In this document: positions 8,947 to 12,970 of the stretch, piece after piece
How positions within the stretch are numbered: the stretch's first letter is position 1
Layout of the letters: each line of letters starts with the position of its first letter
Origin: an uncultured Lachnospiraceae bacterium
GTDB lineage: Bacteria; Bacillota; Clostridia; Lachnospirales; Lachnospiraceae
Assembly (NCBI GenBank): GCA_947169935.1
Contig: CAMVRS010000009.1
Coordinates: 1 to 46,661 of the forward strand
DNA: 46,661 nt
Direction of reading: 5' to 3'
Program-made: the position numbers and the translations under genes
Notes under the pieces: model-generated
What the model was told of the DNA's origin: nothing
Databases searched by the model: none
The model's input: only the letters and a program-made list of their open reading frames with translations

Positions 8947-11529
8947 ATGAACATTCAGAAATTTACACAGAATTCGATACAGGCAGTCAATGACTGCGAA
9001 AAGCTGGCCGTGGAGTACGGCAACCAGGAGATAGAACAGGAGCATCTGCTTAATGCACTGCTTGGGCTTGATGAATCACTTATTTTAAAACTTGTTGAGA
9101 AGATGGAGATCAACACCGAGCACTTTAAGGACAGGGCGCTGCAGGCTCTCAAAAAGAGGGTTAAGGTACAGGGCGGCGATCTGCGTATCGGACCGGATCT
9201 TAATAAGGTGCTGATAAGTGCGGAGGATGAGGCAAAGGCCATGGGTGATGACTACGTTTCCGTAGAGCACCTGATGCTGGCAATGATAGCCCATCCCAAT
9301 AAAGAGATAAAGGCGCTGTTTACGGAATACGGCTTTACCAGGGAGCGTTTTCTTATGGCTCTCCAGACCGTAAGGGGCAATCAGCGTGTGACCAGCGATA
9401 ATCCCGAGGCAACCTATGATACCCTTGAGAAATACGGACAGGATCTTGTGGAGAAGGCAAGAAAGCAGAAGCTGGATCCCGTTATAGGCCGTGATGCGGA
9501 GATACGTAATGTTATCCGTATCCTTTCAAGAAAGACTAAGAACAATCCCGTTCTAATCGGTGAACCCGGCGTAGGTAAGACTGCCGTAGTCGAAGGTCTG
9601 GCACAACGTATAGTCCGGGGTGATGTTCCCGGCGGCCTTAAGGATAAAAAGATATTCGGCCTGGATATGGGTGCCCTGGTAGCAGGCGCAAAGTACAGGG
9701 GCGAATTTGAGGAACGTCTCAAAGCCGTACTTGAGGAAGTAAAGAAGAGCGACGGCCAGATAATCCTCTTTATAGATGAGCTGCATACCATAGTGGGCGC
9801 GGGCAAGACAGACGGTGCTCTGGATGCAGGCAATATGCTTAAACCCATGCTTGCAAGAGGCGAGCTGCATTGCATAGGTGCCACCACTCTGGATGAATAC
9901 AGGAAGTATATCGAAAAGGATCCGGCTCTGGAGAGACGTTTCCAGCCTGTGCAGGTGGATGAGCCTACAGTTGAAGATACCATATCCATACTGCGTGGAC
10001 TAAAGGAAAGATACGAGGTCTATCACGGTGTAAAGATACTGGATAATGCGCTGGTCAGTGCAGCAATGCTTTCCAACCGTTATATCACCGACCGTTTCCT
10101 GCCCGATAAGGCTATAGACCTTGTAGATGAGGCCTGCGCTCTGATAAAGACCGAGCTGGACACTATGCCTACCGAGCTTGATGAGGCATCCCGCCGTATC
10201 ATGCAGATGGAGATAGAGGTGGCGGCCCTTAAGAAAGAGGACGATAACTTAAGCCGTGAGCGCCTGGAGGATCTGCAGAAGGAACTGGCCGGAGAGAAGG
10301 AAGAATTTGAAAAGGCCAAGGCCCAGTGGGAGAACGAAAAGGCTGCTGTAGATAAGGTTTCAAAGATCCGTGAGGAGATAGAAGCAGTAAACAACGAGAT
10401 CCAGATAGCGCAGCGTGAGGGCAATTACGAAAAGGCCGGAGAGCTTTCCTACGGTAAGCTGCCCGAACTTAAGCGTGCCCTTGAGCAGGAAGAGGAGACT
10501 GCCGGTAAGAAAGAAAACCGCCTGGTGCATGAGAACGTATCCGATGAAGAGATAGCACGTATCATATCCAGATGGACTGGCATACCCGTAAGCAAGTTAA
10601 ACGAGAGCGAGCGTAATAAGACCCTGCATCTGGATGAGGAGCTGCATAAACGTGTCATAGGTCAGGATGAGGCTGTTACCAAGGTAAGCGAGGCTATAAT
10701 CAGATCTAAGGCCGGCATTAAAGATCCTTCCAAACCCATAGGATCATTCCTGTTCCTGGGACCTACCGGCGTAGGTAAGACGGAGCTGGCTAAATCCCTG
10801 GCAGCGACGCTGTTTGACGACGAGAGCAACATGGTCCGTATCGATATGAGCGAATATATGGAGAAGCATTCCGTATCAAGGCTGATCGGAGCGCCTCCGG
10901 GATATGTGGGTTATGACGAAGGCGGCCAGCTTACCGAGGCAGTACGCCGCAAGCCTTATTCCGTAGTCCTCTTTGATGAGGTGGAGAAGGCACATCCCGA
11001 TGTATTCAATATATTGCTGCAGGTGCTGGATGACGGGCGTATCACCGATTCCCAGGGCCGCACCGTAGATTTTAAAAATACCATACTTATCATGACCTCC
11101 AACATAGGTTCCCAGAGCCTGCTGGAAGGTATAGATGATGACGGCAATATCACGCAGGAGGCTCAGGACGCCGCAGAAGCACAGCTTAAGCTGCACTTCA
11201 GGCCGGAGTTCTTAAACCGCCTGGACGAGATCATCCTCTTTAAGCCTTTGACCAAGGACAACATAGGCGGCATAGTAAACCTGATCATGAAGGATCTGAA
11301 TGCACGTCTCTCCGAAAGAGAGATAAGCGTGGAGCTTTCCGACGACGCCCGCAAGCTCATAGTAGATGAGGGCTACGATCCCATCTACGGCGCAAGACCG
11401 CTGAAGCGCTACATCCAGAAGACTGTTGAGACCTTAGCCGCCAAGCTGATCCTTTCCGGCAGCATCTCACAGGGCGACACCATCCTGATCGAGGCCGCCG
11501 GCGAAGACCTTAAGGCTGTGAAGAAATAA
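8947..11529 (+). CDS. clpB: ATP-dependent disaggregase ClpB
   Basis: The 860-residue protein has the full ClpB layout. An N-terminal Clp repeat domain (about 1-150) is followed by AAA+ module 1 with Walker A GEPGVGKT (residues 205-212). Next come a long coiled-coil middle domain (about 395-530, the M-domain that separates ClpB from ClpA/ClpC) and AAA+ module 2 with GPTGVGKT (from residue 605). It ends with a C-terminal oligomerisation region. ClpB works as a cytoplasmic hexamer with DnaK to rescue aggregated proteins after heat stress. The ATG has an excellent GGGAGGTG ribosome site. Control by HrcA is indicated by the CIRCE element overlapping its promoter. Confidence 0.97.
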
Positions 11530-11582
11530 ACACCGTGAAGTATCCCGGTCAGGGGGCACACGCAGAGCGTGCTCGGATCATA

Positions 11583-11794
11583 CCCGGCAGCGGACACACA
11601 CAGAGCTGACGCAGCGTTGCCGCAGCACTTAATAAGCGTGCCCTGCCCAATCTTGCCCCGCAGAACTGTTTGAACGCAGCTCACGCAATTAGCGTGAGCA
11701 AGTGAGTTTCAAGGGGCAAGTCGGTTTCAGGGCAGGGTGCGCGAATTTAGTGCGGAGGCACAGCGGAGTCAGCCTGTGCGCGTACGCTGCCGGG
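11583..11794. repeat. 212-nt near-continuous palindrome (structured RNA or MITE-like element)
   Basis: This is the core of the only gene-free stretch over 300 bp (11530-11932). Nested complementary arms, from outside in, are: 11583-11592 with 11785-11794 (10 bp, perfect); 11599-11610 with 11768-11778 (11 pairs, one bulge); 11618-11621 with 11757-11760; 11625-11629 with 11749-11753; 11636-11648 with 11730-11742 (13 pairs, two of them G-U); 11652-11659 with 11713-11720 (8 bp, perfect); 11670-11674 with 11708-11712; and 11679-11686 with 11692-11699 (8 bp, perfect, loop AATTA). No credible ORF or transposase lies inside. It sits after clpB and before that transcript's terminator, so it would appear in the clpB 3' UTR. 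Confidence 0.8.
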
Positions 11795-11885
11795 GCTATC
11801 ACAGCGGAATCGAGCGTGTCACAGATCATGCCCGTCTGCTAAGCCGTTAGAAAGGATGGACCGGAGCAATCACCGAAAATGATTT

Positions 11886-11915
11886 AACACTACCTGTTTA
11901 AGGTAGTGTTTTTTT
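11886..11915 (+). terminator. Rho-independent terminator downstream of clpB
   Basis: AACACTACCT (11886-11895) pairs perfectly with AGGTAGTGTT (11901-11910) around GTTTA, followed by a T-run to 11915. Only four bases separate the T-run from the TATAAT of the next gene. Confidence 0.92.
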
Positions 11916-11916
11916 A

Positions 11917-11925
11917 TGCTATAAT
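11917..11925 (+). promoter_or_regulatory. Extended -10 promoter of the PpiC-like lipoprotein gene
   Basis: TGCTATAAT gives an extended -10 with a consensus hexamer at 11920-11925. The GTG at 11933 follows after 7 nt. No good -35 is visible: the position 17 bp upstream, TTTAAG, lies in the loop and right arm of the terminator. Confidence 0.6.
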
Positions 11926-11932
11926 CTTGCGT

Positions 11933-12970
11933 GTGAAAAAACAAAGAGTGAAAAAACATATATTATTATTGTGTATTTGCATCTGCGTTCTCTTTAGTGC
12001 CTGCAAGAAGCAGGTAGTCCTTACCACAGGTTTCTGGGAAGATGAGATCTTTCGTGTGGAGGACAGCCATTGTGTAAAGGCAGAGGTAATGGTCTATCTG
12101 TATAATCTCCACGAGCAGTACGAAAACTCTTTTGGCAGCGGCATATGGTCTGCGGGCGGCACAGGCGTGGATCTTAAGCAGAATCTTAAGCAGACCGTTC
12201 TGGCCAGGCTGGCAAAGATAAAGCTTATGAATATCATGGCCGAACGCTACCAGGTGACGCTCTCCGATGCTGAAAGGTCGAAGGCACAGCAGGCGGCCGG
12301 CGTGTATTATGCATCGCTTACTCCCGGGGAGCTGGAGATCATGAGCGGCCTCACCGAAGAAATGGTAGTTAAAATGTACGAGGAATATGCGGTGGCGGGC
12401 CGTCTGTATGATAAACTGACAGAGAGCGTCAATACCGAGATAAGCGATGATGAGGCAAGGGTAGTCAGGCTTCACCAGATAGCGCTGCTTAGGGAAACGC
12501 AGGACGAAAACGGTAATGTGGTCCGCGCGAATGAGGCCCAGCTTCAGGTCAGGGCGGCGCAGATCATGGAGCGCCTGCAGGAAGGGGAAGATTTCGATAC
12601 CCTGGCGTATTCGTATAATGATGCTGCAGAGATCAGTATAGATATGGTCAAAGGGGAAAAGGATGAGGAGGTGGAAAAACTCTGCTTTGCTCTTTCTGAG
12701 GATGAGATCGGCGGCCCCGTTTCCGGAGGGGACGGCGTATATATCTTTAAGTGCATTAGTACATATGACCGGCAGCAGACAGAAGAAAGAAAGCTTAAAC
12801 TGGCAAATGAGAGAAAGAAGGAGAGCTTCGATGCGCGTTATGAGGAATTTGCATCGGGCATGGAGATATATTTAAATGAGGATCTCTGGAACAGCGTAAC
12901 CCTGGAGAACGTCAGCGATAAGGGCAAAACGGATTTCTTTGAGATATATGAAAGGTTTTTCGGAAAATGA
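11933..12970 (+). CDS. PpiC/SurA-like peptidyl-prolyl isomerase lipoprotein
   Basis: About 345 residues with a lipoprotein signal (lipobox LFSAC, lipidated Cys24 counted from 11933), then an N-terminal helical chaperone-like region. A C-terminal parvulin-type domain follows, seen in EGEDFDTLAYSYNDAAE and ALSEDEIGGPVSGGDGVYIF. The family folds secreted proteins on the outer membrane face. The start is uncertain: the frame is open from 11906, but GTG codons at 11933 and 11948 lie just before the signal peptide. The -10 box at 11920-11925 makes the upstream part untranscribed. Neither GTG has a strong ribosome site, so a leaderless GTG start is likely. The M13 peptidase lipoprotein gene follows. 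Confidence 0.78.
   Translation: MKKQRVKKHILLLCICICVLFSACKKQVVLTTGFWEDEIFRVEDSHCVKAEVMVYLYNLHEQYENSFGSGIWSAGGTGVDLKQNLKQTVLARLAKIKLMNIMAERYQVTLSDAERSKAQQAAGVYYASLTPGELEIMSGLTEEMVVKMYEEYAVAGRLYDKLTESVNTEISDDEARVVRLHQIALLRETQDENGNVVRANEAQLQVRAAQIMERLQEGEDFDTLAYSYNDAAEISIDMVKGEKDEEVEKLCFALSEDEIGGPVSGGDGVYIFKCISTYDRQQTEERKLKLANERKKESFDARYEEFASGMEIYLNEDLWNSVTLENVSDKGKTDFFEIYERFFGK

Follow-up and report, generated by a model that had tools for sequence, protein, structure and literature searches.

The presence of a 212-nt rod-like palindrome directly downstream of clpB raises the question whether it is an RNA, a regulatory element of its neighbour or a mobile sequence. The initial annotation of the window, i.e. 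the whole stretch of 46,661 nt from an uncultured Lachnospiraceae bacterium (genome G000) analysed here, had offered a large ncRNA, a heat-responsive 3' UTR of clpB and a palindromic MITE as options, and this interpretation holds in part, the palindromic MITE being nearest and the heat-shock link to clpB falling away. With little more than even confidence, we read the rod as one copy of a non-coding palindromic mobile repeat of approximately 180-260 bp, REP/MITE-like, recognised by its apex and with arms shaped by template switching.

The fold of the + strand of 11583-11794 confirms an end-to-end single rod of 212 nt with only small internal loops, its RNA energy of -127.3 kcal/mol (z -11.1) being reached by none of 200 dinucleotide shuffles, and DNA parameters giving a z of -10.8. 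The + strand is the better-folding one, RNA of the opposite strand reaching -123.5 kcal/mol, and a weaker extension pairs approximately 11571-11579 with 11807-11815. As annotated, the clpB terminator is a distinct hairpin outside the element (stem 11886-11910, +, followed by a T-run), a like hairpin being kept after clpB in G046 and G050 where this site has no rod, and the rod contains no internal ORF at a cut-off of at least 80 aa; an opposite-strand frame of 91 aa (11409-11684), which overlaps the clpB end in antisense, extends into it. No sigma-70-like promoter was found in 11400-12000. Folding in sliding 200-nt windows over approximately 390 kb (own genome, G046, G001, the window and four control loci), used instead of an ungapped inverted-repeat scan that had missed its own positive controls, marked the rod as the only stretch of the window with z < -4 and found one more rod, in G000:C7. 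This procedure flagged three of the four own-genome copies (window, L002, L004) and missed L003 as well as the G046 palindrome described below.

The rod is not a single-copy sequence. We identified four real copies in its own genome, all with E of at most 4e-59, whereas five more of the nine listed matches are short pieces of 16-21 nt; by our reading of the translations, three of the real copies follow clpB (window), miaA and hslO, and the fourth separates fliI from fliJ. Their comparison divides the rod into a conserved core of 157-158 nt (11611-11767, +; R1 model match of 175.8 bits, this copy itself being in R1), with 89-98% identity among the four, and adjoining 40-nt arms with only 35-52% identity, random 40-mers giving 33%; over all comparisons made, arm identities span 30-58%. 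Within each copy, however, the arms form 27-32 of 40 pairs with -37 to -51 kcal/mol, compared to approximately -15 kcal/mol for random sequences. In the window, the copy-specific left outer arm (11571-11610, +) is 38-52% identical to its counterparts in the other three copies and forms 30 of 40 pairs with the right outer arm (11768-11815, +), whose sequence is likewise copy-specific. Taken together, the rod is dispersed in the genome, missing from the same sites in relatives as described below, free of ORFs and conserved in its core but not in its arms.

Several elements, all on the + strand, recur within the core. Alignments A2 and A5 define a 5' box GCACTTAATAAGC (11625-11637; mostly GCACTTARYRA in other genera) and its partner, the 3' box GCGAATTTAGTGCGGAG (11741-11757), the AA of the former lying opposite the GA of the latter. 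By eye and in the model alignment, the apex consists of a 5' half CTGTTTGAACGCAGC (11666-11680), corresponding to CTGTTTGAGCGAAGC of other genera, and a 3' half GCAAGTGAGTT (11698-11708), corresponding to GCGAGTT of other genera, between which a 17-nt hairpin insert (11681-11697), missing from the G129 and G310 copies, extends the apex in the own genus. On the 3' side follows the mostly unpaired AGTCGGTTT (11719-11727), of which AGTCGGTT is invariant in 17 aligned genus copies. The conserved bulges at 11670-11673 (TTGA) and 11721-11724 (TCGG) might possibly form a tertiary pairing; in the genus copies viewed by eye, these bulges, YYGA and UCGG (CUGA and UCAG in L061), are complementary.

Comparison of orthologous sites shows patchy occupancy. 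Downstream of clpB, the rod is present in two of 13 folded loci (34 clpB loci were found in the genus), i.e. G000 and G019, in opposite orientations; no other listed R1 match lies on the clpB contigs. At this site G050 has the terminator only, and G046 an unrelated palindrome with arms of approximately 23 nt (L076). Between fliI and fliJ, where 24 of 30 loci were readable, three carry the rod (G000, G046 and G050), the G050 copy being inverted relative to that of G000; the gap measures 0-124 nt in 20 of the 24 and 152 nt in G048, which has no listed model match there. In the G046 copy (L056 1501-1689) two unrelated hairpins take the place of the 5' half, and what remains, the 3' half, matches three G000 copies at 97-98% identity. 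As site occupancy is patchy and orientation varies, the rod is an insertion and part of neither clpB nor fliI. This bears directly on the reading of the rod as a heat-shock 3' UTR element of clpB, to which the location behind clpB, the occurrence of a clpB-adjacent rod in G530 too and a further copy adjoining hslO (Hsp33), itself a heat-shock gene, lend some appeal; with rods at only two of 13 clpB loci, the G019 copy inverted and others beside fliI, miaA and hslO, it is largely refuted and we regard it as very improbable. The fliI-fliJ junction of G021 and G005 contains another short repeat (CCTTCCCC..GGGGAAGG, CTCATCCGGCC), found also beside rods in the flanks of L017 and L019.

Copies at the same site are no closer to each other than copies at different sites. 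In the core 3' half (88 nt), the G019 and G046 copies show 94-98% identity with three G000 copies and 86-89% with the one after hslO, and the G050 copy 81-88% with all G000 copies; over the final 200 nt of the genes, identity amounts to 78% for clpB between G000 and G019, and for fliI to 86% between G000 and G046 and 84% between G000 and G050. We infer mobility because empty sites exist and because the core follows neither site nor gene divergence. As a counterpoint, the high core identity between species, which in G019 and G046 exceeds that of the flanking gene ends, could reflect purifying selection on a functional RNA, and in G050 the core 3' half does not surpass the fliI end in conservation.

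The element is found across the genus and, sparsely, beyond. A DNA search gave rod matches in five of 40 genomes, and the covariance model R1, built from 11 copies, in 12 of 35 genus genomes and in three of 299 across the family, the own genome included each time; some listed R1 rows represent one copy's opposite strand, and G012 and G047, with 14 matches each, match more weakly. Model R2 (21 rows, G000 copies left out, copies of G129 and G282 in) matches 19 of 397 genomes and 17 of 334 family genera, the own genus included and G129 and G282 by construction. The named rod-bearing relatives are Lachnospiraceae assemblies, several of them from rumen. An exact 29-mer searched over species genomes had no match; a gapped pattern returned 17 stretches, of which 14 carry the element and derive from the same assemblies as some of our genomes, and three (L031, L037, L039) had no model match and were dropped. 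No Rfam family was matched in the scan that had been proposed with the initial annotation, neither at gathering score in the window and ten distant loci nor, over a core, in an E-value search of five loci, and neither the window rod nor one phage rod had a BLAST match among phages and plasmids. Copies are locally clustered in G129, G310 and G470, and reading the ORFs around clustered copies by eye revealed no common partner. In L071, after position 1630 (G012:C43), a short-form rod is followed by tandem, nearly identical small hairpins resembling its outer arm by eye.

Is the conserved core an RNA? Since the first alignment (A1) misaligned a variable middle stem, a structure-based model was used. 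In alignment A5 (20 distinct rows) 38 of 47 pairs show two-sided compensatory change, reached in none of 500 shuffles, a figure to be taken as an upper reading because the alignment, from which the G000 copies are absent, had been fitted to the model and because copies are related; the same reading applies to A2, with compensatory change in 14 of 49 pairs and, out of five covariation measures, that for further pair types below its shuffles (499 of 500 at least as high). The rod is thus neither confined to one genome nor devoid of compensatory change, either of which would have spoken against the annotated element. In 32 of 37 copies the core is more stable as the + strand, the average difference being 7 kcal/mol; all five exceptions are G005/G021 copies. 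As G-U exceeds A-C in the core pairs of A5 only by 30 to 20, the strand argument rests on fold energies. The arms show no + preference: in 34 copies 80 G-U pairs fall on the + and 105 on the - strand, a count made on 60-nt flanks with chance pairs included. The rod therefore splits in two, a conserved and strand-biased core and arms that drift but remain paired and strand-neutral.

These observations bear on the reading of the rod as a dispersed structured RNA, an sRNA or protein-binding RNA, with a core under purifying selection at each site after old duplication. The compensatory changes, the better folding of the + strand in cores and in 54 of the 59 apex tips described below, and the conserved AGUCGGUU with purine-rich loops all agree with it. 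It accounts less well for an orientation to genes that varies, down to opposite orientations at one site, for the antisense position of 21 of 28 tips lying between co-directional genes, for the lack of a promoter-like site near the window copy and for the patchy presence in 12 of 35 genus genomes, and the alignment on which it draws was itself fitted to the model and lacks the G000 copies. We consider this alternative as having perhaps a one-in-several chance of being correct. The annotated large ncRNA is a possible reading, with strong compensatory change and one better-folding strand, although a DNA hairpin can likewise produce both.

The mobile-repeat reading is accompanied by a model according to which the arms would be kept complementary by template switching between inverted repeats during replication, and the core would occasionally be flipped by switching of the same type. 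Passages in the literature report template switching as homogenising the arms of inverted repeats and inverting their spacer (PMC8604942) and as maintaining hairpins (PMC8794818). Such a process would account for arms that differ between copies yet are paired within a copy, as well as for strand-neutral arm mismatches and opposite core orientations at one site, the latter of which may also be independent insertions. It is the simpler explanation for the arms because it homogenises arms and inverts the spacer, both patterns being seen here, and it predicts that arm covariation is not evidence of RNA function. The conserved core would be explained by selection acting on an RNA or on single-stranded DNA in its folded form. 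The arms hence amount to a natural test, since covariation in long hairpins may stem from RNA selection or from template switching, and strand-neutral arms and a strand-biased core differ within one molecule; on covariation alone the rod would have been filed as a new ncRNA. Where co-transcribed with a neighbour, the rod is predicted to form a strong RNA hairpin, maybe cut by RNase III or altering mRNA stability, which we regard as secondary.

What the distant copies share is the apex. In other genera it resembles CUGUYUGAGCGNAGCGAGUU, G129 and G310 copies ending in CTGTTTGAGCGAAGCGAGTT or close to it, and in the own genus it is split by the extra hairpin, for which reason the own genome has no exact match (0) to the 20-mer CTGTYTGAGCGNAGCGAGTT. 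This exact 20-mer occurs in ten of 398 genomes of the own phylum (Bacillota), at 72 sites summed, 36 of these in G649 and 11 in G473, and its reversed pattern in none. It is furthermore present in 14 IMG/VR contigs, one of them P2-like; in viral L161 the rod lies between the genes for the P2 head completion protein and the P2 capsid. A protein of viral L168 shows 26-28% identity to two phage records, one a Bacteroides phage, and this match is the sole support for a Bacteroidota link in this analysis. Altogether we collected 60 distinct tips, 59 with enough flank for folding, of which all but those of L157 and L201, hence 57, cap a rod at z < -4; the + strand gives the better fold in 54 (53 with DNA parameters). 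Nine of the 59 come from loci found by structure models and are rods by construction; among the 50 found by pattern only, 48 cap a rod and 46 fold better on +. R2 finds the tip rod in five of 30 distant sources (L212, L219, L205, L165 and L223; E 0.0005-0.007) and misses it in 25, two further R2 matches lying elsewhere; the viral pattern match L135 had no model match.

In part, these data show the rod belonging to a wider group of rods that share the better-folding strand and the apex, although the tie between the own-genus rods and the far ones, made through the apex and weak R2 matches, appears weak. The apex might be read as GA-GC-GNA-GC-GA, for which sheared G-A pairs over a GNA triloop are conceivable; the sequence GCGAAGC gives a very stable mini-hairpin in DNA. 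That there is one class of apex-recognised, single-strand-specific (DNA or RNA) hairpins with template-switched arms and a putative mover, extending over several families of the phylum, P2-like phages and probably Bacteroidota, we put forward tentatively and hold to be rather doubtful. Six versions of the apex string were not found printed in the open-licence literature, and titles, abstract openings and one table of the open-licence literature on repeat families contain no such family. We take the repeat to be a previously undescribed variant of the bacterial palindromic repeats, the group defined by the apex having a real chance of being something new. In a member of another family, G530, a tip-bearing rod lies just downstream of clpB (L243 2645, G530:C17), perhaps by chance. 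By eye, the viral rods L159-L164 and L166-L170 are followed by a second, T/A-rich hairpin, e.g. GGTTCTTTCTTGCACAAGCAAGAAAGAAC, which was not seen beside the folded Lachnospiraceae copies.

The ends of the rods suggest how they are recognised. The termini could be read in 11 copies, one of which lacks the left flank, from three lineages (G310, G530/G596 and G005/G021); in each lineage whole units with like arms have been copied, so that the ends travel within a lineage, and the termini are alike within each lineage and different between them, the centre being common to all. At the ten copies with both flanks readable, copies with ends off the motif being left out, no direct repeat of at least 2 bp was observed as target-site duplication. 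A classical MITE, moved by a transposase binding terminal inverted repeats, would be palindromic, ORF-free and intergenic like the rod and would have the like termini seen within lineages; the missing duplication and the change of termini around a common centre argue against it, and we judge it unlikely. The annotated palindromic MITE nevertheless came closest of the three options, as borne out by four dispersed copies and empty sites in relatives, and parted from the data in its end-based features. Because the apex is kept between genera and the ends are not, we infer that a putative trans-acting factor would recognise the folded apex of the + strand, as ssDNA or RNA, rather than the ends. 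Palindromic repeats of bacteria are as a rule defined through their termini and linked to a transposase. In this repeat, conservation lies in the centre and the ends vary freely, a pattern that suggests a folded apex as the recognised part.

With related copies counted separately, 37 of 60 tips are flanked on either side by an ORF no more than 500 nt away, 21 lying antisense and seven sense between co-directional genes, six between convergent and three between divergent genes; two more of the 60 are inside a long ORF and the others were unclassed. In the genomes examined we observed neither a transposition event nor an insertion at strain level nor an enzyme responsible. Movement of a REP-type hairpin by an IS200/IS605-like Y1 (RAYT) transposase would agree with the one-strand folding bias, the lack of a target duplication and a Y1 transposase match in 17 of 23 rod-bearing genomes, the own included. 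The six without a match (G006, G005, G021, G045, G310 and G801), however, include three (G006, G005 and G021) with 5-7 model matches each, the rods are several times the length of REPs and two own Y1 (RAYT-like) genes, in L026 and L027 (G000:C113 and C124), are flanked by other repeats (GGGGGTCAGACCCC, GGGGGACGGTTCTG) unrelated to the rod, making this reading improbable. Even less do we expect a SINE-like retroelement, with a reverse transcriptase copying the rod RNA; strand-biased folding, a conserved apex and ends that are unconserved between lineages would suit it, but RVT_1 matches are absent from six of 16 rod-bearing genomes, among them G649 (36 tips) and G473 (11). Possibly the enzyme is lost or unmodelled, and assemblies are perhaps incomplete.

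Comparison with known systems places the repeat next to, but not within, described families. Passages on ERIC/IRU/RU-1 and YPAL of Enterobacteria describe intergenic bacterial MITEs whose transcripts would fold into long stem-loops and whose mover has no experimental support (PMC2229807), with lengths of approximately 100-200 bp (PMC2267715). Like ERIC, YPAL and NEMIS, the rods are dispersed and would give long hairpins if transcribed; unlike ERIC and YPAL, which are described by terminal repeats, they share the apex and vary at their ends, a distinction resting on description. ERIC-type elements use TA target sites. For NEMIS/Correia of Neisseria, action of RNase III on their RNA has been proposed, and 24-bp terminal repeats and a target duplication are described in the same passages (PMC2229807); the rods are likewise dispersed hairpins, but no duplication was seen. 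REP/REPINs with RAYTs (GTAG and CGTC families) are described in another source (PMC3733652) as intergenic palindromes that occur in several phyla, for the most part where the neighbouring genes are convergent or point the same way. Their units of 20-40 bp contrast with rods of approximately 180-260 nt (212 in the window, 180-225 in the three lineages), and six of 23 rod-bearing genomes have no Y1 match. The rods are non-coding, dispersed and shorter than 300 bp like MITEs, but share no terminal inverted repeats, the G000 arms being unlike each other and termini differing between lineages; they show compensatory change beyond shuffles like structured ncRNAs, a pattern template switching can also produce. 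The rod thus lacks the end-based MITE features tested as well as the size and transposase features of REPs. Integron attC sites are imperfect hairpins that act on one strand, with R-boxes RYYYAAC / GTTRRRY; these R-boxes have no match on either strand of 11540-11860. The further rod of the own genome in G000:C7 (L267 961-1330), unrelated to the element described here, measures approximately 370 nt and consists of nested palindromes with GGGGAC..GTTCTG units, which resemble repeats beside an own-genome Y1 gene.
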